Shown here piece after piece: positions 17,137 through 52,821 of a DNA stretch of 64,000 bases; within the stretch, counting starts at the first letter, position 1; every line of letters starts with the position of its first letter. Under the pieces are notes generated by a model, which ran no database searches, was not told the origin of the DNA, and worked only from the letters and a program-made list of their open reading frames with translations. A program made the position numbers and the translations under genes. The stretch is from Gracilibacillus suaedae (GTDB taxonomy: Bacteria; Bacillota; Bacilli; Bacillales; Amphibacillaceae): the NCBI RefSeq assembly GCF_017599345.1, contig NZ_JAGFVL010000053.1:62001-126000 (forward strand), read 5' to 3'.

Positions 17137-18063
17137 ATGGAGGAAAACAAGAACGTTTCAAAAAATAGTTGGAAACGTATCTTCAAGAAAAGATGGTTTT
17201 TTCCTGCTGTATATCTAGCGGTAGCTGCTCTACTTTTAACAGGGGTTCTATGGTATCAAAATGCTGCAAATCAAGGGCCAGACTTAGCAGAAGACATGGA
17301 AAATCAACTAGATGATCTAAGTGAAGATCAAGATGCACAAGATGAAGAAGATGCAACTACTGTCATGCAACAACAGGAAGTACTAGAGATGCCAGTTTCC
17401 GAAGACTTGCAAGTGGAAATCGTGACCAAATTTTATGATTATGGAGCAGATGCAGAAGAACAAGAACAGGCGCTCATTTCACACCAAAACAAATTCTATC
17501 AAAGTGATGGGATTGCAATCTCGACTGATGACCATGAGGCATTTGATGTGACAGCGTCATTGTCTGGAACGGTAGCAGAAGTGAAGCAAGATCCATTACT
17601 AGGTAATGTGGTGAAGATGGAGCATGAGCATGGGGTTTCCACATACTATGCTAGTTTAGATGAAGTTTTTGCTGAAGAGGGTAACGAAGTCAAGCAAGGA
17701 GAAACCATTGGAACAGCTGGACAGAATACACTCGGTCAAGACAATGGTGTCCACGTTCACTTTGAAGTGAGAAAAGATGGAACACCAGTCAATCCAGAGC
17801 ATTTTATTAATCAACCAATTAATAAAATTATCGGACCTGACAAGGGTGAAGAAGAAGACAAGGAACCAGCTGCAGAAGATGAAGAGAAGGAAGAAGAAAA
17901 TTCAGAAGAAAATAATACACCGACGGAAGAAGAAAGTTCAGAGGAAAATGAAGCATCAACAGAAGATGACAGTTCAGCTGAAGATGAGAACGCAACAGAA
18001 TCAGAAGACAATTCAGATGCTGAAAATGAAACAGAATCATCGAGCGCAATGGAACATGCGTAA
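17137..18063 (+). CDS. spoIIQ: Stage II sporulation protein Q (LytM-like)
   Basis: Forespore membrane protein whose extracellular M23/LytM domain pairs with SpoIIIAH to bridge the two membranes. 308 residues: short cytoplasmic tail, one membrane helix (about 22-42), LytM domain about 125-225. The HVHFEVR zinc motif is present, but the first zinc histidine of the HxxxD motif seems replaced (FYQSDG), as in the enzymatically dead B. subtilis protein. After the domain comes an acidic, Glu/Ser/Asn-rich tail of about 70 residues that relatives generally have shorter. Confidence 0.93.
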   Translation: MEENKNVSKNSWKRIFKKRWFFPAVYLAVAALLLTGVLWYQNAANQGPDLAEDMENQLDDLSEDQDAQDEEDATTVMQQQEVLEMPVSEDLQVEIVTKFYDYGADAEEQEQALISHQNKFYQSDGIAISTDDHEAFDVTASLSGTVAEVKQDPLLGNVVKMEHEHGVSTYYASLDEVFAEEGNEVKQGETIGTAGQNTLGQDNGVHVHFEVRKDGTPVNPEHFINQPINKIIGPDKGEEEDKEPAAEDEEKEEENSEENNTPTEEESSEENEASTEDDSSAEDENATESEDNSDAENETESSSAMEHA

Positions 18064-18154: not shown

Positions 18155-18183
18155 CAAATAGTGTCGATATCGATAACTATTTG
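18155..18183. promoter_or_regulatory. 29-bp inverted repeat upstream of the AimR-like gene
   Basis: CAAATAGT (18155-18162) and ACTATTTG (18176-18183) are perfect inverted 8-mers; the 13-bp centre itself contains the palindrome TCGATATCGA. It is about 80 bp before the receptor gene start and resembles an operator for a dimeric regulator. Confidence 0.5.
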
Positions 18184-18261
18184 ACGAACGATTCTAGCAA
18201 AAAACCTATTGCATAATTTCTCGATTATGAAATAATAAGTAACTGTGAAAGGAGATAGATT

Positions 18262-19299
18262 ATGGCACAATCAAATACAAAAACAAAGATCGGGACAATG
18301 CTCGACTATTTTGAATCAGAAAAGCAACTGCAATTTCCTCAATTTTTAACCTTGATCAGTCTAGATAGTGACGAAGCAGCACAATTGGAATTAGCAAAGG
18401 AATTCCTGCATCAAAGCAATTCTGACTTAGATAAACGATTAGCTCTAGAGTATTTTTATATTAACCAATGCTACCATGAATTACAATATTTTATAGAAGT
18501 GAACAAAGAAAGTATGAATCCATTAAATCAAGGATTAGCGATACTTTATCAGTTCATGCTAGATTTAAAAAATGGTAAACCTGTTCATGAGATCAGAACT
18601 CAATCGAAAACGGTTTCCGTTCAACATCCTGAATTAAGGTGTTTAAAATACTTTTTGTATATTGAAATAGATAAAAAAGTATATAACTACGAACGAATCG
18701 GTTACTATCTAAATAAAATTCAGAAATATCTACGTCATCTAGACAATCCACTATTTATTACATTCTTCCAGATTAGAATAAAGAACTTATTATTTCACTA
18801 CTATTGGAAGAGAAATGAGTTAATTTTAGCAAGAAAGAACGCTTATGAAGCGTTACAAATGCCTCATCATATCAAATCAAAAGCACGTCTCCACCTAGAC
18901 TTAGCACTCAGTTATATATATGAAGATTTTGAATCTAGTGTCTATCATATCGAAGAAGCAAAATACATAGCTAATTGCTTAAACGATGCAGACACTTTAG
19001 AAGATATTGATTCACATATTTATCCGTTTATTTGTGCACACTTCGGAAGAGTGAAAGGGGTTTTTACTAACGATCCGATTGAACGAGCACACTTAGAAAT
19101 AGCAAAAGGGAACTACGAAAAAGCAACAAATTTGTTGGAACAATTAGACACAATAACCCCGTTTACACAATATTACTTAGGCTTAGCAACAAAGAAGCAA
19201 CATTTTTTCATATATTCTTATCAATACTTTATGGAGAAAAGGAGTGATCACTTTTTCGCAAGGTTGCCACTGAGGGCTTCAGAAGGTTTAGGAATATAA
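18262..19299 (+). CDS. AimR-like (RRNPP/TPR) peptide-pheromone receptor, lacking most of the HTH
   Basis: A 345-residue all-helical TPR-type protein. Its C-terminal half follows the arbitrium receptor AimR closely in pattern: a region ending IERAHLEIAKGNYEKAT..LLEQLD, then QYYLG, then a terminal helix with IYSYQYF and FFARLPL (AimR of SPbeta-type phages has a matching FLIRLPL). The N terminus starts about 30 residues later than phage AimR, so most of the DNA-binding helix-turn-helix seems absent. The start ATG 18262 has AAAGGAGAT, and an in-frame stop TAG at 18256-18258 excludes an upstream extension. No phage genes surround it; it lies between spoIIQ and spoIIID. A 17-codon ORF follows in the same unit. 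Family call is from recalled similarity. Confidence 0.75.
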   Translation: MAQSNTKTKIGTMLDYFESEKQLQFPQFLTLISLDSDEAAQLELAKEFLHQSNSDLDKRLALEYFYINQCYHELQYFIEVNKESMNPLNQGLAILYQFMLDLKNGKPVHEIRTQSKTVSVQHPELRCLKYFLYIEIDKKVYNYERIGYYLNKIQKYLRHLDNPLFITFFQIRIKNLLFHYYWKRNELILARKNAYEALQMPHHIKSKARLHLDLALSYIYEDFESSVYHIEEAKYIANCLNDADTLEDIDSHIYPFICAHFGRVKGVFTNDPIERAHLEIAKGNYEKATNLLEQLDTITPFTQYYLGLATKKQHFFIYSYQYFMEKRSDHFFARLPLRASEGLGI

Positions 19300-19321
19300 A
19301 GAAAATATGGGAGTGGGAGAA

Positions 19322-19375
19322 ATGTCTATGAAGTTCGTAAAAAAGTTTGATCCAGATTACGGTGATATTGGTTAA
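19322..19375 (+). CDS. 17-residue ORF behind the AimR-like gene (candidate peptide signal)
   Basis: Encodes MSMKFVKKFDPDYGDIG, 22 nt after the receptor stop and before a shared terminator, the place where arbitrium systems keep aimP. Two in-frame ATGs (19322, 19328) each have a GGGAG ribosome site at good distance (19309-19313 and 19315-19319). Unlike AimP it has no signal sequence and is much shorter, so it would need another export route, or it acts inside the cell. A basic start (KFVKK) and an acidic, Gly-ending tail (DYGDIG) are seen. Whether it is made is unknown. Confidence 0.5.
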   Translation: MSMKFVKKFDPDYGDIG

Positions 19376-19407
19376 AAAGAGTGATGGCGAAAGCCATCAC
19401 TCTTTTT
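19374..19407 (+). terminator. Terminator of the receptor/peptide unit, GAAA tetraloop
   Basis: AAAAAGAGTGATGGC / GCCATCACTCTTTTT pair perfectly (15 bp) around a GAAA tetraloop. The stem begins inside the stop codon of the 17-codon ORF. Confidence 0.95.
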
Positions 19408-19559
19408 AATTACATCGTCCAATCCTCTCTGACTCGTATGCTGACGCAAAATTTACTGTCATAATGGGATGTGCTGTTTAATATGATGGTACAAATTATC
19501 TTTTATTTGTCTAAGGTGAGGATGCTATTCGTCGGTATTGTGGATAATTTTATAGGTAG

Positions 19560-19610: not shown

Positions 19611-19901
19611 GTGCATGACTACATCAAAGAGAGAACATTAAGGATTGGAAGGTACATTGTCGAAACGAAGAAAACGGTTCGAGTTATCGCCAAGGAATTT
19701 GGAGTTTCAAAAAGTACAGTACACAAAGACCTGACAGAACGATTACCAGAAATACATCCAGAGCTGGCAAACGAAGTCAAAAACATACTAAGCCACCATA
19801 AAGCAATTCGACACCTTCGTGGTGGAGAAGCAACCAAAATGAAATATCAGCTTAATGGTAAAAAAGCACCGCCGGAAACAGAAGAACTATTAACTAAATA
19901 A
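19611..19901 (+). CDS. spoIIID: Sporulation transcriptional regulator SpoIIID
   Basis: Mother-cell DNA-binding protein that switches sigma-E genes on or off before sigma-K acts. 96 residues, very close to the B. subtilis protein: HDYIKERTLRIGRYIVETKK, then the HTH VRVIAKEFGVSKSTVHKDL, then ERLPEIHPELANEV and HLRGGEATKMKY. The true start is GTG 19611, with GGGGAGGCGAG at 19596-19606; a longer reading adds 16 residues not present in the family. It precedes mbl as in Bacillus. Confidence 0.96.
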   Translation: MHDYIKERTLRIGRYIVETKKTVRVIAKEFGVSKSTVHKDLTERLPEIHPELANEVKNILSHHKAIRHLRGGEATKMKYQLNGKKAPPETEELLTK

Positions 19902-43149: not shown

Positions 43150-43306
43150 AATGAATTAGCTTGACGTTGATAGATTTAGAGATTACGATATTACTAGGAG
43201 TAATTTTTTGTAAGAAGGGGTGTGACTTTATTAGGATAATTTTACCAATTAAATCCTTACTTATTCTGGTTGAACAATGAGTTTCTATTACAGGAGGAAA
43301 TACTTG

Positions 43307-46300
43307 ATGGAGTTTAAGAAAAAGCTAATTACGCTTGTAGCCTTTTTCACTTTTGTTTATTATGTGCCTATCAGTGCAACAGCTGAAGCAGAACAAGAAA
43401 CTGAAAATTCGGATCAAGCTGAGGAAAGAACAACTGATAATGAATTAAACGAAACAAGTGAAGTGGAAGAAGAAGTGGAATCGTCAGATGATGTAGAATC
43501 AAAGGAAGTTACTGAAGAACAAGAAGAGGAAGTAACAACAGATGAAAATCAAGTAACGGAAGAAACTAATAGTACAGAAGCAGAAGTTAGTACTTTATCA
43601 GTAGAGGATACTTCGGCTTTAACTGTTGAGGATGCATCGTCAGTTCAAGATGATCTAAAGCAACTTGGTTTTGAAAACTCTGATATGGAAGATGCACTTC
43701 TATATTTTCAGTCTTATTATGGATTGGAAGAGACGGGAGAAGTTAATGAAGCAACACAAAATAAAATAGACGAAATTCTATCTAGTCCTTTAAGAAAAGG
43801 CCAATATCATAATGATGCTATCCAGTTAAAGAAAGACTTAGCTAGATTGGACATCCATATTTCCAATAGTCCTACTGAACATTATGGTCCTTTAACAGAA
43901 GCTGGAGTAATGAATTTTCAAGAACAATATGGTCTGCCAGTGAGTGGAATAGCAGATTATAAAACATTAGATAAGATTAATGAATTATTGACTGGTCCTA
44001 TGTTTAATGGTCTACATCGTGATGATGTTGTGGATTTAAAAATTGACCTAGAGAAATTAGGATTTCATGTATCAAGTAACCCTACTTATCACTATGGACC
44101 GATAACTGAGTCTACAGTAAAAGAGTTTCAAAGCTATTATGGCCTAGAAGCTGATGGAGTAGCAGGCCCATCAACTTTGAATAAAATAGACGAAGTTCTA
44201 AATAGCCCTTTTCAAGATGGAGAATATAACGAAGAAACTATTAAGTTAAAAGAAGATCTCGAAATCTTAGGCTATAAAGTTTCCAATGACCCTACCACCC
44301 ATTATGGTCCGATAACAGCATCTAAAGTGAAAGAATTCCAAGAGGATCAAGGGCTTAAAGCGACTGGGATTGCAGATTCTGTAACTCGTGCCAAGATTCA
44401 AGAATTGCTTGATAAACCACTTGAAAAAGGTATGGAAAGATTAGACGTAATAGATTTGAAATTAGATTTAGAGAAATTAGGATTTCATGTATCCAATAGT
44501 CCTACTACATATTATGGACCGATAACGGAATCAAAGGTTAAAGAATTTCAAAAATATTATGGTCTTACAGCTGATGGAAAAGCAGGTCCAGCGACTCTAG
44601 ACAAAATAGAGGATATAGTCAATAGTCCATTTCAAGATGGAAAACGGCATGAGGATACTATTCAATTAAAGGTAGATTTAGAAAAACTAGGATTTCATGT
44701 ATCAGATGATCCAACAACATTATATGGATACATCACTACCAAGAAGGTGGAAGAATTTCAGGAATTTTACAATCTGAAAGTAACAGGAATTGCCGATCCT
44801 GTAACAAGAAATAAGATTCATGAATTAGCGAATGCCCCGCTGGAAGATGGTATGTATCGAAATGATGTAATTGATTTAAAAATTGACTTAGATAAGTTAG
44901 GGTTCCATGTCTCAGACACTCCGACTACCCATTATGGACCAATAACAGAATCTAAAGTAAAAGAATTTCAAAAGTATTATGGGTTACCTGTTACGGGAAT
45001 TGCAGATAGCGACACAGTTGACTTATTAGAGGAGTTAGCGTCTACGCCTCTTCAAGAAGGTGGTCATCACGAAGATGCTATACAACTTAAAAAAGATCTT
45101 GAAACATTAGGATTTAAAGTTTCAGACGACCCAACAGAGTATTATGGACCAATTACTACTTCAAAAGTAAAAGAATTTCAATCTTATTATGGATTGAAAA
45201 CAAACGGTATTGCAGACTCTAAAACATTAGAAAAGATCCAAGAGATCTTAGAAAGTCCATTACAAGATGGTGCGAGAGTAAAAGAAGCAATACAGTTGAA
45301 GGAAGATTTAGATACATTAGGTTTCCATGTGTCTGATGATCCGACCAACCACTATGGTCCTATTACAGCGTCAAAGGTTGAAGAGTTTCAAGAATATTAT
45401 GGTCTTCCTGCAACGGGAATTGCCGATTATAAAACACTAGAAAAGATCGAAGAAATTTTAAATAGTCCATTTCAGTATGGGAAAAATCATAAAGACACGA
45501 TCCAATTGAAAAAGGATTTATCTAAATTAGGTTTCCATGTGTCTGATGACCCTAACGATTACTATGGTCTTATTACTACAGAAAAGGTAGAAGAATTCCA
45601 AGAACAATATGATCTTCCTGTAAGTGGTATAGCAGATGAAAATACTTTTGCTAAGATTAAAGAGCTATTAGAAACAAAAGTAATCTATCATTATACCAAT
45701 TACGATTATTCGTTGCAAAAAATGCTAGATATTCAAATGGGTGTATCACCACAGACTGATAAATATCGAAATGATCCGGCATATGTATTAGCATCTGATA
45801 TTGAAGTTTATAGTAGTCCAACTGTATCAAGTGGCGTGTTTGTAAGAAGTGCACCAAGAATTGAAGAAAGTACAAAGGAATTCAAAACAATAAGTACAAT
45901 TAATGTTGAAATTCTTTCGAAAAATATCTCAGGTGATTCTTACAACGGCAGTACAGAGTGGTATAAGATTAAATACAATGGCGAAGAATATTATGTTCAC
46001 AGTTTATTAGTGAATGAATCTAATGGTGCTAAGGTTAAAACGGCTACCGATGTAAAAGCAAAAACAAGTACAGGGAGTCATACATTTGGCCGACTTGCAG
46101 CAGGATCTTCAGTTTCCGTTAAAAGGAAAACCGGTTCTTGGTATGAAATTAGTTATCAGAGTTGGAGAAATGCAAAATCAGGTGATGTGATGGAATATTT
46201 AGACCCTGAGAAAAACAATAACTTCCAGCATCTTCTTTTATCAGGAACTGCAGGGTTATCCGCAAGTCAATTAAGAACCATTATAGACGGAAAGGGAACT

Positions 46301-46828
46301 CTAGATGGACAAGAACAAGCTTTTCTTGACGCAAGTAATTCAAGTAATGTAAACGAAGTATATTTAGTTTCTCATGCATTATTAGAAACTGGACACGGCA
46401 CATCTGATCTAGCTAGTGGTGTTTATGTTGACAAGAATGGAAACACTATTAGAGACAGTAATGGTAATTTAATTTTAGATAAATCAAAAGTCCCTAGTGG
46501 ATCAACTAAGGTTTATAATATGTATGGTATCAATGCAACAGATAATAATGCAGTTAATGGAGGAGCAAAGTATGCTTATGAACAAGGCTGGACTACTCCT
46601 AGTAAAGCAATAATTGGAGGAGCTCAGTGGATTTCGGGTCGATATATTAATCATAGTAGTTACCAACAGGATACACTATATAAAATGCGTTGGAATCCGC
46701 AATCACCAGGTACACACCAATATGCAACAGATGTTGGTTGGGCGGTAAAACAAATCTCTGAAATCCAAGATTTATACGAACAATTACCGGATGCCATAAA
46801 ACAATTTGACATGCCTCGATATAAATAA
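43307..46828 (+). CDS. Secreted wall N-acetylglucosaminidase with nine peptidoglycan-binding repeats
   Basis: 1173 residues. Signal peptide (FKKKLITLVAFFTFVYY...ISATA), an acidic Glu/Thr/Ser linker (about 25-110), one degenerate and nine full PG_binding_1-like repeats of exactly 70 residues (about 165-795; consensus LKxDLxxLGFHVSxDPTxHYGPIT, then KVKEFQxYYGL, GIAD, KIxELL), two SH3-like segments, and a C-terminal LytD-type glucosaminidase with the catalytic Glu in SHALLETGHGTSDLA. AGGAGG at 43292 decides the start (ATG 43307 or TTG 43304). It should cut glycan strands while held on the wall. The repeats match those of the amidase at 50215. Confidence 0.92.
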   Translation: MEFKKKLITLVAFFTFVYYVPISATAEAEQETENSDQAEERTTDNELNETSEVEEEVESSDDVESKEVTEEQEEEVTTDENQVTEETNSTEAEVSTLSVEDTSALTVEDASSVQDDLKQLGFENSDMEDALLYFQSYYGLEETGEVNEATQNKIDEILSSPLRKGQYHNDAIQLKKDLARLDIHISNSPTEHYGPLTEAGVMNFQEQYGLPVSGIADYKTLDKINELLTGPMFNGLHRDDVVDLKIDLEKLGFHVSSNPTYHYGPITESTVKEFQSYYGLEADGVAGPSTLNKIDEVLNSPFQDGEYNEETIKLKEDLEILGYKVSNDPTTHYGPITASKVKEFQEDQGLKATGIADSVTRAKIQELLDKPLEKGMERLDVIDLKLDLEKLGFHVSNSPTTYYGPITESKVKEFQKYYGLTADGKAGPATLDKIEDIVNSPFQDGKRHEDTIQLKVDLEKLGFHVSDDPTTLYGYITTKKVEEFQEFYNLKVTGIADPVTRNKIHELANAPLEDGMYRNDVIDLKIDLDKLGFHVSDTPTTHYGPITESKVKEFQKYYGLPVTGIADSDTVDLLEELASTPLQEGGHHEDAIQLKKDLETLGFKVSDDPTEYYGPITTSKVKEFQSYYGLKTNGIADSKTLEKIQEILESPLQDGARVKEAIQLKEDLDTLGFHVSDDPTNHYGPITASKVEEFQEYYGLPATGIADYKTLEKIEEILNSPFQYGKNHKDTIQLKKDLSKLGFHVSDDPNDYYGLITTEKVEEFQEQYDLPVSGIADENTFAKIKELLETKVIYHYTNYDYSLQKMLDIQMGVSPQTDKYRNDPAYVLASDIEVYSSPTVSSGVFVRSAPRIEESTKEFKTISTINVEILSKNISGDSYNGSTEWYKIKYNGEEYYVHSLLVNESNGAKVKTATDVKAKTSTGSHTFGRLAAGSSVSVKRKTGSWYEISYQSWRNAKSGDVMEYLDPEKNNNFQHLLLSGTAGLSASQLRTIIDGKGTLDGQEQAFLDASNSSNVNEVYLVSHALLETGHGTSDLASGVYVDKNGNTIRDSNGNLILDKSKVPSGSTKVYNMYGINATDNNAVNGGAKYAYEQGWTTPSKAIIGGAQWISGRYINHSSYQQDTLYKMRWNPQSPGTHQYATDVGWAVKQISEIQDLYEQLPDAIKQFDMPRYK

Positions 46829-50095: not shown

Positions 50096-50214
50096 AAAAG
50101 ATCACGGAGTTAATTGAGCAACTTATAGTAACAAAATGTAAAATGTTTATCAATATAGTTATAATTCCTTTTTTATATCCGATATAAAGTATATGGCTTG
50201 GAGGAGGTGAAATG

Positions 50215-52821
50215 ATGAAATTAAAGGTTTGTACTCTTTTCTTCGTGTTTAGCATTTTTACTGTCCTTTTCTCTATGTCTGATTCATTGGCCACAACTGA
50301 AGAGTTAAGTGAAGAAGGTTCTCAAGCACAAGATAATGAGGTCATCGAAGACGTATCTTCAGAAAAAGAGAATAATGAAGAGCAAAAGGTAAACGATCTC
50401 AGTTTACAGGTAGAGGAAGATGCTGAAGAAAGTGTTGAAAGTGACCAGACATCTAGTCTAGCAGAAGAGGAGAATAAGCTAGAGCTCGAAGATTCAAATG
50501 AAGAGAAGTTAACTGATGAGCCAAATGTAAAAGACGAAGAGGTAAAGGAAGAAGCTGAACAACAAGTAACAACTTTCTCAGTGGAACAACCAAAACAATT
50601 ACAAAATGGTACATATGATGAAGATGTAATCGAACTAAAACTTAATCTAGCAAAAGCAGGGTTTAAGGTTTCGGATAGTCCAACTGATTACTTTGGACCA
50701 ATCACTGAAAAAGTTTTGAAGGAGTTTCAATCATATTACGGATTAACCGATTCTGGTATTGCTGAAGAACAAACATTGGACAAATTAAATAGTATTATTA
50801 ACAGTCCATTGCAAAATGGTAATAGAAATAATGAAACAATAGATCTGAAGCATAATCTAGCAACACTAGGATTTATAGTGCCTGGTAATATGACAGAACA
50901 CTTTGGCGATTTAACGGAAGCTACCGTTAAGGATTTCCAAAAAGCTTATGATCTTGTTCCTTCTGGAATAGCAGATGAAGTAACAATGCGTAAATTAAAT
51001 GAATTGATCGAGAAACCATTATCTAATGGAATGCATCATGAAGACGCAATTGAACTAAAAATTAACCTAGCTAAAGTAGGCTTCAAAGTATCTAGTAATC
51101 CTACTGATTACTTCGGACCTCTTACGGAAGTAGCTGTGAAAGATTTTCAAAAATATTATAATATAGCTGTTACAGGTGTTGCTGATCAAACTACATTAGA
51201 AAAATTAGCTGATATTCTTAGCAGTCCATTACAAAACGGAAATAGAAATAACGAAACCATAGAGCTTAAATATAATTTAGCAACACTAGGGTTTGTAGTA
51301 CCCGGTAATATGACAGAACACTATGGTGATTTAACGGAGGCTACCGTAAAAGATTTCCAAGAAGCATATGGTCTAGTATCCTCCGGGATAGCAGATGAAG
51401 TAACATTACGTAAATTAAATGAATTAATCGATGAACCGCTATCTAATGGAATGCAACGTAAAGATGCCATCGATTTAAAAATTAACTTAGCTAAAGTAGG
51501 CTTCAAAGTATCTAATAATCCAACTGACTATTTTGGACCGCTTACGGAAGCAGCTGTGAAAAAGTTTCAAAAATATTATAATATAGCTGTTACAGGTGTA
51601 GCTGATCAAACCACTTTAAAGAAATTAGATGATATTGTCAGCAGTCCATTGCAAGACGGAAAACGTAATAAAGAAACTGTGGATTTAAAATATGACTTGA
51701 AAGCATTAGGATTTGTAGTGCCAGGTAGTAATATGACAGAATATTATGGTCCGAAGACGAAGAAAACTATAAGTGAGTTTCAAACGTACTATGGTTTAAA
51801 AAGCAATGGAATAGCAGATGAGAGAACGCTTAGCAAGATCGAAGAGTTATTATCAAGTCAGTTACAGAACGGGAATTATAACCAAGCAACAGTGCAATTA
51901 AAGTATGATTTGAAATCACTGGGCTTTGTAGTGCCAGGTAATATGACAGAACATTATGGTCCAAAAACAGAAGAAACAGTTAAAAATTTCCAAAAACATT
52001 ATGGATTAACACAAAACGGTATTGCGGATTCATCAACATTAAAGAAAATACAAGATTTATTATCAAGTCCTATGCAGAATGGTAACTACAACAGTAAAAC
52101 GATAGAATTGAAATACGATTTAGCTGCATTAGGTTTTGTAGTGCCAGGCAATATGACGGAACATTATGGACCTAAGACAGAAAAGACTGTAAAGAGCTTT
52201 CAAAAAGCATATGGTTTACCTGTAAGTGGTATAGCAGACGAAGTTACTCTGCAAACAATAAAAGATTATGTTGTAAGAATCTTTTTAGACCCTGGTCATG
52301 GTGGTACAGATCCAGGCGCTGATGGTTACGGGATAAAGGAAAAGGATGTTGTACTGGATATAGCCGAAAAAACATCCTATTACCTAACTAAAAATTATCT
52401 AGGAGTACGTACATTTCTTTCAAGGGATAGTGACAAATTTATTTCTCTTGATGACCGAACCAAACATGCAAACTCTATCGGTGCAGATTACTTTGTAAGT
52501 ATTCATAATAACGCTTTTACGGGTAGTGCCAGCGGTTTCGAGTCTTATATTTATAATGGGTCTACTTCCGCAACTACAAAAAACAATCAGAAAATAATTC
52601 ATAATTATTTAATCAATAAATTGAATGTAAACGATCGAGGTATGAAGGAAGCTAATTTTCATGTATTAAGAACTAGTAATATGCCATCGATCTTGATTGA
52701 GTATTTATTTATTGATAATAAAGCTGAAAATGAAAAGCTAAGAGACAGCAGTTATCGACAATGGCTTGGTCAAATTACAGCAGAGGCGATCGCCAAAGCA
52801 TATAATTTGAAACAAAAATAA
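50215..52821 (+). CDS. Secreted N-acetylmuramoyl-L-alanine amidase with eight peptidoglycan-binding repeats
   Basis: 868 residues. Signal peptide (KVCTLFFVFSIFTVLFS...SLA), acidic linker to about residue 125, eight 70-residue PG_binding_1-like repeats (about 130-690), then an Amidase_3 zinc domain: DPGHGGTDPGA (His ligand), SIHNNAF (His ligand) and ILIEYLFIDN (catalytic Glu). It cleaves the bond between muramic acid and the peptide stem. Repeat units alternate in type, and units 2-3 are nearly copied in 4-5. ATG 50215 suits GGAGGTG (50203-50209) better than ATG 50212. Closely related repeats occur in the glucosaminidase at 43307. Confidence 0.93.
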   Translation: MKLKVCTLFFVFSIFTVLFSMSDSLATTEELSEEGSQAQDNEVIEDVSSEKENNEEQKVNDLSLQVEEDAEESVESDQTSSLAEEENKLELEDSNEEKLTDEPNVKDEEVKEEAEQQVTTFSVEQPKQLQNGTYDEDVIELKLNLAKAGFKVSDSPTDYFGPITEKVLKEFQSYYGLTDSGIAEEQTLDKLNSIINSPLQNGNRNNETIDLKHNLATLGFIVPGNMTEHFGDLTEATVKDFQKAYDLVPSGIADEVTMRKLNELIEKPLSNGMHHEDAIELKINLAKVGFKVSSNPTDYFGPLTEVAVKDFQKYYNIAVTGVADQTTLEKLADILSSPLQNGNRNNETIELKYNLATLGFVVPGNMTEHYGDLTEATVKDFQEAYGLVSSGIADEVTLRKLNELIDEPLSNGMQRKDAIDLKINLAKVGFKVSNNPTDYFGPLTEAAVKKFQKYYNIAVTGVADQTTLKKLDDIVSSPLQDGKRNKETVDLKYDLKALGFVVPGSNMTEYYGPKTKKTISEFQTYYGLKSNGIADERTLSKIEELLSSQLQNGNYNQATVQLKYDLKSLGFVVPGNMTEHYGPKTEETVKNFQKHYGLTQNGIADSSTLKKIQDLLSSPMQNGNYNSKTIELKYDLAALGFVVPGNMTEHYGPKTEKTVKSFQKAYGLPVSGIADEVTLQTIKDYVVRIFLDPGHGGTDPGADGYGIKEKDVVLDIAEKTSYYLTKNYLGVRTFLSRDSDKFISLDDRTKHANSIGADYFVSIHNNAFTGSASGFESYIYNGSTSATTKNNQKIIHNYLINKLNVNDRGMKEANFHVLRTSNMPSILIEYLFIDNKAENEKLRDSSYRQWLGQITAEAIAKAYNLKQK

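Follow-up and report, generated by a model that had tools for sequence, protein, structure and literature searches.

A host-encoded, HTH-less relative of the arbitrium receptor and its candidate signal peptide between two sporulation genes of Gracilibacillus suaedae

Introduction

Phages are known to use AimR, a DNA-binding activator, as a switch between lysis and lysogeny. In the salt-loving spore former Gracilibacillus suaedae, the gene for an AimR-like receptor lies between two sporulation genes, which raises the question of whether it belongs to the host or to a phage and what it may do in such a place. The initial annotation, made from the letters alone, had described a pheromone receptor that starts late and lacks most of its helix-turn-helix (HTH) domain, followed by a 17-codon open reading frame (ORF) in the position of aimP, and it had considered a host version of arbitrium tied to sporulation timing. 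We followed up this reading in the window (the whole stretch of DNA analyzed, 64,000 nucleotides) and in related genomes.

Results

The genes of the locus follow one another on the plus strand in the order SpoIID-domain protein, M23 peptidase, receptor, 17-codon ORF, terminator, spoIIID, and mbl (Table 1). We call the M23 peptidase SpoIIQ on the basis of its domain and position, and a homologue of it lies 5' of the receptor in most loci of this kind. The receptor frame opens with the ATG at 18262 and closes with the TAA at 19297-19299, and an in-frame TAG, the second codon before the ATG, bears out the earlier statement that the gene has no N-terminal extension. The short ORF begins after a gap of 22 nt, its coordinates agreeing with the first description, and a single terminator indeed ends both genes: its hairpin, scored over 19368-19412, folds at -28.3 kcal/mol (z -10.7), a value that none of 200 shuffles equals, and it is not among the matches of a pattern scan for terminators. 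No known RNA element reached the gathering threshold between 17900 and 19700. Pfam scans of the adjoining genes found no phage genes, and with an M23 peptidase, SpoIIID, and Mbl as flanks, the receptor lies between spoIIQ and spoIIID and away from phage genes, as had been claimed. Elsewhere in the window, two large proteins (43277-46828 and 50212-52821) carry nine and seven tandem PG_binding_1 stretches, respectively, and the second also has an Amidase_3 domain.

Table 1. Features of the receptor locus, in window coordinates
Feature	Position	Strand	Basis
M23 peptidase gene in the spoIIQ position, upstream flank	17137..18063	+	Pfam PF01551, E 4.3e-22
Upstream element TGTCGA ... TTTGACGAACGATT, two 0A-box-like sites	18162..18193	+	conservation in the genus
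Candidate promoter, TTGCAT and then extended -10 TGAAATAAT	18209..18236	+	read by eye
HTH-less AimR-family peptide receptor, 345 aa	18262..19299	+	NF038310, PF22871, phrog_1728, AlphaFold2, Foldseek
Leaderless peptide ORF MSMKFVKKFDPDYGDIG, 17 codons	19322..19375	+	conserved C-terminal motif, pN/pS, hydropathy
Predicted mature signal DPDYGDIG, 8 codons	19349..19372	+	no other part of the ORF is conserved in the genus
GAAA-loop hairpin and T-run, terminator common to receptor and ORF	19369..19412	+	folding
spoIIID, downstream flank	19611..19901	+	PF12116, E 7.5e-40

That the receptor belongs to the AimR family is agreed on by family models, a profile search, and a fold search. NF038310 matches it with 136.2 bits (cut-off 70, E 1.4e-39), the Pfam AimR model PF22871 with 194.1 bits (cut-off 26.7, E 4.1e-57), and phrog_1728 with an E value of 5.3e-35. 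A PDB search with the single sequence gave a weak match (E 0.013), and a profile built from the window protein and 36 relatives, 37 sequences in all, found the solved AimRs at E 9.6e-20. The AlphaFold2 model (pLDDT 92.7, pTM 0.88) predicts a TPR-like fold nearest to AimR, with a poorly predicted helix at residues 5-17 followed by 18 helices in nine pairs. All 16 PDB matches of this model in Foldseek at E<=0.001 are AimR structures (E 1.5e-9 to 7.6e-8, TM to query 0.75-0.85), and RapF matches weakly (E 4.9e-3, TM 0.50). The closest named orthologue, in G. lacisalsi, is 92% identical. In the receptor of G. boraciitolerans (L012 and L178), the C terminus deviates at the last residues in a frameshift-like manner, by decay or sequencing error.

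Across the family of the host, NF038310 matches 134 of 159 genomes at E<=0.001, 125 of them over its cut-off. At least 156 distinct receptor frames, nearly all from this family, could be placed among the matches listed, and of these 156, 113 lie at the spoIIQ-spoIIID slot, 31 at speE-speB/ywiB, and 12 elsewhere; a frame was counted for the slot also beside spoIIQ or spoIIID alone where the partner gene fell outside the retrieved stretch. A FastTree phylogeny of 155 rows, with some long branches, places the slot receptors in a single clade (local support 97%), which also includes 6 frames from other places, and the speB-type receptors in a separate clade with 99% support. Within the former, the Gracilibacillus slot receptors form one clade of 16 (support 100). 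The phage-type AimRs and one further receptor (L147) fall outside both host clades. In another family, f36, both slots are present. With the window protein as the query, tblastn at 1e-5 found no match in 50,697 phage or 72,556 plasmid records, while the same search with L034 and L045 found 25 and 3 phage records, respectively, which are Bacillus phage AimRs; we label these two queries as phage type for this reason. By these comparisons, the window receptor is encoded by the host and is not phage cargo. Some loci hold several receptors: L256, L257, and L258 of family f36 have three to four AimR-like receptors in tandem at speB-ywiB, recalling the expansion of Rap paralogues, and L091 (in G116) has two identical tandem copies between spoIIQ and spoIIID.

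The late start of the window protein proved to be shared. Three AimRs from related genomes, L034, L041, and L045, carry an extra HTH-like stretch at the N terminus, which the alignment places outside the window protein and which is missing from all remaining 21 rows, every one a host receptor, the window protein included. Pfam HTH_3 gave a match in L034 (E 3.8e-6), a weak one in L045 (0.007), and none in L041, and no Pfam HTH was found in the five host receptors scanned. In 97 of the 113 slot frames listed, fewer than 45 residues separate the preceding stop codon from the first repeat; the other 16 frames are longer and by eye have no HTH-like stretch. A truncated gene was considered for the window and rejected because the stretch is missing in 20 other aligned host receptors too. 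Judged from the alignment, loss of the HTH is thus a trait of the host clades, which goes beyond what had been claimed for the single gene.

The contacts between AimP and the AimR of phage SPbeta, as given in the portion of PMC6458997 available to us, were mapped onto the window protein through the alignment of the 37-sequence profile to the solved AimRs. Contacts E300, F276, D360, and F362 correspond to E274, F256, D329, and F331, which do not vary among the 37 aligned orthologues, and N206 and L205 are replaced by K183 and W182 in all 37; the AimP anchors N202, R228, and T236 are not retained. Ten of 27 mapped contacts, compared with 55 of 345 positions overall (hand count), fall in columns conserved at >=90% (P 0.0046). 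K183 and W182 are less constant across the 113 listed slot receptors (56/113 and 69/113, respectively). An acidic peptide beside the lysine K183 would fit. When a Gracilibacillus receptor was modeled by AlphaFold2 as a fusion with its own in-frame peptide, the receptor was folded but the octamer was not placed, with a mean pLDDT of 37 over residues 361-365.

What follows the receptor is conserved at one end. In all 16 loci of the genus with a receptor, the downstream ORF has 15-35 codons, varies in its head, and ends in DPD[YF][GD]D[IV]G; DPDYGDIG or a close variant occurs in all 17 Gracilibacillus genomes, and the rest of the ORF drifts. A genome scan with the exact degenerate pattern of the octamer found a single site in each of 16 of the 17 and two in G004, where the second site, considered as an extra peptide gene, lies inside a long ORF that is alpha-amylase-like by eye. 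The 17 sequences comprise 15 distinct DNA versions that encode 4 versions of the heptapeptide, with a pN/pS of 0.08; pN is lowered somewhat because the sequences were found by pattern, and the locus-based view agrees. The peptide end is therefore under purifying selection, as a signal next to a receptor had been expected to be. Going by this conservation, the 17-codon ORF is real and an adjacent propeptide with a C-terminal mature peptide is present, the mature form being a prediction.

In many relatives, too, the spoIIQ-spoIIID slot contains both the receptor and the short ORF. When we required the motif in a short ORF on the same strand before spoIIID, 67 of the 113 listed slots had one (15/16 in the genus and 52/97 outside), and the reverse strand, the complement, and the reversed sequence gave 0/113 each. 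Looser criteria, used without a control, added 14 slots, one of them in the genus, for a total of 81/113; the remaining 32 listed slots had no peptide by either set of criteria. More than one copy of the motif, and up to nine, occurs in 9 of the 67 strict-motif loci, for example five of DPVMGDLD in L161 and five of DPGYGDIF in L137. The precursors carry at least four copies of the signal motif in L036, L106, L137, L161, L032, and L150. A peptide ORF was found in 3 of the 12 listed loci elsewhere and in none of the 31 listed speB-type loci, where the stretch searched was short.

In other genera, the octamer-type end is the C-terminal motif of precursors of the signal-peptide type. Taking a 10-residue mean hydropathy of >=1.8 in the stop-to-stop frame upstream of the motif (a threshold of our own) as a signal-peptide-like stretch, we found one in every strict-motif locus outside the genus (52 of 52) and in none within it (0 of 15), one of these 15 frames being too short to score. 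The 10-residue maximum was <=1.07 in 15 of the 16 receptor-bearing loci of the genus, again with one frame too short to score, and since whole stop-to-stop frames were scored, a signal peptide hidden by an extension of the frame is excluded. The missing signal sequence noticed at the outset is hence upheld, and by hydropathy it is particular to Gracilibacillus, which had not been part of the original claim. A single loss of the leader is the simplest account, as the genus forms one clade.

Upstream of the receptor lies an element whose two sites we call Spo0A-box-like by comparison with what we take to be the 0A-box consensus. TGTCGA and CGAACGA are kept in the upstream regions of all 17 genomes of the genus, including one without a receptor, and the exact 14-mer occurs once in its own genome, with three other sites within one mismatch. 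The 0A-like pattern is its own reverse complement and so says nothing about the strand; it was found in 15/17 upstream regions of the genus versus 7/25 of other genera (shuffles: mean 0.96, at most 5/42), and control of the element by Spo0A is possible. At the candidate promoter, TGAAATAAT and the TTG are each present in 17/17 upstream regions of the genus; a sigma-70 scan did not have this promoter among its matches and showed no excess over shuffles.

The receptor also keeps company with SpoIIID at the level of genomes. NF038310 exceeds its cut-off in 125 of 151 SpoIIID-positive genomes versus 0 of 8 SpoIIID-negative genomes (Fisher 2e-6, uncorrected for kinship and not a test of independent cases, as the 8 come from only three genera; five AimR-negative genomes in the comparison were counted by subtraction). 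The 125 may include phage-type copies, and 26 SpoIIID-positive genomes have no match over the cut-off. RapH_N is scarce, with 13 of 159 genomes of the family, ten of these in one genus, and 0 of 17 in Gracilibacillus. Given the slot position, the conserved 0A-like boxes and promoter-like elements, the co-occurrence with SpoIIID, and the scarcity of Rap, our best guess from the sequences compared is that the receptor helps to time sporulation in a Rap-like way.

One Gracilibacillus genome, G007, has lost the receptor. Neither profile nor tblastn (E 2.1 or worse) found one in its slot (L202, G007:C10:271500-278500), which keeps the upstream element and a peptide ORF with DPDYGDIG as its last residues. 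At the DNA level, a short stretch of this slot resembles the end of the receptor gene and the peptide region in a sibling (E 4e-7). As no similarity was found at the protein level, we take the receptor to be gone. The speB-type paralogue is present in this genome. An intact peptide in the absence of its receptor, in this one genome, makes another listener possible. The genome of G. suaedae has another AimR-like receptor without an HTH (L080, G000:C50:39196-40197), which lies outside the window (G000:C50:62001-126000), about 41 kb upstream. Its neighbors, named by eye, are speB and a ywiB-like gene, no peptide ORF was found next to it, and the speB-ywiB slot recurs in other genera. Paralogues of this type keep W182, K183, E274, D329, and F331 in 30 of 30 frames.

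Discussion

The family, the fold, the missing HTH, the conserved slot, the conserved peptide end, and the lack of a leader in Gracilibacillus are established here by sequence comparison and a structure model. The locus probably encodes a host relative of arbitrium, in which an HTH-less receptor and a short ORF with an octamer signal act through protein contact, most plausibly on sporulation timing. In this proposal, the AimR-family receptor and the very short ORF would form one unit, and the last eight residues, DPDYGDIG, would be the signal peptide. The octamer would be cut from a product of 15-35 amino acids, enter the TPR groove, and switch the shape of the receptor, which, having no DNA-binding domain, may then act in a Rap-like way by binding a protein. 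The likely purpose would be to decide when, or at what threshold, the cell sporulates, as suggested by the neighboring sporulation genes, the 0A-like boxes in the genus, the joint absence with spoIIID, and the rarity of Rap in the family. In most relatives the peptide resembles a Sec-type secreted pheromone, whereas in Gracilibacillus it may leave by a leaderless route or act inside the producing cell. Several observations speak against this proposal: 32 of the 113 listed slots had no peptide by the criteria used, the 0A-like pattern is infrequent in other genera, the SpoIIID-negative genomes represent only three genera, 26 SpoIIID-positive genomes have no match over the cut-off, the peptide persists in G007 without a neighboring receptor, several AimP anchors are gone, and the fusion model left the octamer unplaced.

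That same G007 locus, with peptide ORF, upstream element, and paralogue intact, lends weight to a different reading, by which the peptide serves the speB-ywiB paralogue also or instead, so that one signal would have two receptors. The listed speB-type loci have no peptide of their own and the paralogue retains the shared pocket residues, but G007 is a single genome, contact positions 205, 213, and 216 differ between the clades, and the stretch searched behind the speB-type receptors was short; we regard this reading as possible, if somewhat doubtful. It is rather improbable that the receptor still controls transcription, through the helix left at its N terminus or with the help of a partner protein, and has no Rap-like protein target. 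AimRs of phages do activate transcription by binding DNA, and the model retains the short helix at residues 5-17, but this helix is predicted with low confidence (block means of 40 and 52 within the N-terminal 20 residues), and neither the slot frames, most of them short before the first repeat, nor the Pfam scans of five host receptors gave any sign of an HTH.

The short ORF might instead be a leader or attenuator, conserved for reasons of RNA or translation and not as a signal, since it adjoins the terminator and its stop codon lies inside the hairpin. We consider this very unlikely: conservation is at the level of amino acids, with 15 DNA versions reduced to 4 of the peptide, relatives have a like end behind a signal-peptide-like stretch and in some loci repeat it, and the RNA of the ORF has no more structure than expected by chance, with 186 of 200 shuffles folding at least as well. 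Strongly disfavored, and to our minds hardly credible, is a degraded prophage remnant, in which a decaying AimR of phage origin would have shed its HTH, as the missing HTH and the lysis-lysogeny receptor name of NCBI model NF038310 might suggest. An open frame and a conserved pocket in the same slot over many genera, a second HTH-less clade at speB-ywiB, with both slots occupied in family f36 too, and the absence of phage and plasmid matches in a search that finds phages with L034 and L045 all count against it.

Returning to the proposal of a host unit with an octamer signal, we can imagine a wider version, in which Rap-poor spore formers time sporulation by an HTH-less arbitrium receptor that predates the split of at least two families, and in which the pheromone of Gracilibacillus is intracellular, private, and read by both its neighbor and the speB-ywiB paralogue. 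This version as a whole is unlikely. Were the host reading true, arbitrium would include an ancient cellular lineage, no longer able to bind DNA and seated in a sporulation locus, and the lysis-lysogeny label that the NCBI model gives in 125 of the 159 genomes of the family, some perhaps for phage-type copies, would be wrong for most of those 125. Filters that rely on signal peptides would miss the Gracilibacillus peptide because it has no leader.

Comparison with known systems

Chromosomal relatives of AimR have been described before. Section 8 and Table 4 of PMC9765709, in the parts available to us, report a propeptide for 11% of the AimRs in class 'Other' and treat the rest as putative eavesdroppers, compared with 81 of 113 listed slot receptors here. 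The RRNPP surveys PMC10075063 and PMC12700828, likewise in the excerpts available, place a chromosomal subfamily 21 near AimR in a sequence tree and report a DPG motif. The chromosomal AimR homologues and subfamily 21 of Alkalihalobacilli (PMC9765709 and PMC12700828) resemble the present receptor in being AimR-like and on a non-prophage chromosome; those available parts make no mention of the spoIIQ-spoIIID slot, of HTH loss in AimR, or of leaderless AimP-like peptides. Among the matches listed in a search of open-access PMC titles and abstract beginnings, excluding preprints, we found no AimR-like receptor at spoIIQ-spoIIID and no leaderless AimP-like peptide, and supplementary RRNPP tables may include some of these loci. 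As far as we searched, the slot, the HTH loss in the host branch, and the leaderless AimP-like peptide are new to print.

Leaderless peptides paired with an RRNPPA receptor are known for RopB, where, according to the excerpted text of PMC10518010, export proceeds without canonical machinery. RopB belongs to another receptor class and is a transcription activator, while the receptor here is of the AimR and not the Rgg/RopB type, and the RopB peptides are mostly 8-10 amino acids long, hydrophobic, and encoded in mature form, while here a charged octamer follows a variable head.

Arbitrium itself, as described for SPbeta-group phages in the available part of PMC6458997, shares with our locus the family models, the AimR fold, several AimP-contact residues, and a short peptide gene directly 3' of the receptor gene. 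It differs in being carried by a phage or mobile element, in having a propeptide with a Sec signal peptide, which by hydropathy the Gracilibacillus peptide lacks, and in the RGA-type endings of its major peptide families; here the acidic DPDYGDIG is encoded in a fixed, inherited slot between sporulation genes of the host chromosome, with no phage or plasmid matches and no HTH. Rap-Phr of B. subtilis differs from our system in its fold, to judge from the weak RapF match, and in RapH_N, which is absent from the window protein and from the 17 genomes of the genus. Rap-Phr nevertheless resembles it, by the Rap features given in the available part of PMC9765709, in combining an HTH-less TPR receptor with a small peptide gene, and in acting by protein contact, the mode of action that would also apply to the receptor of G. 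suaedae.
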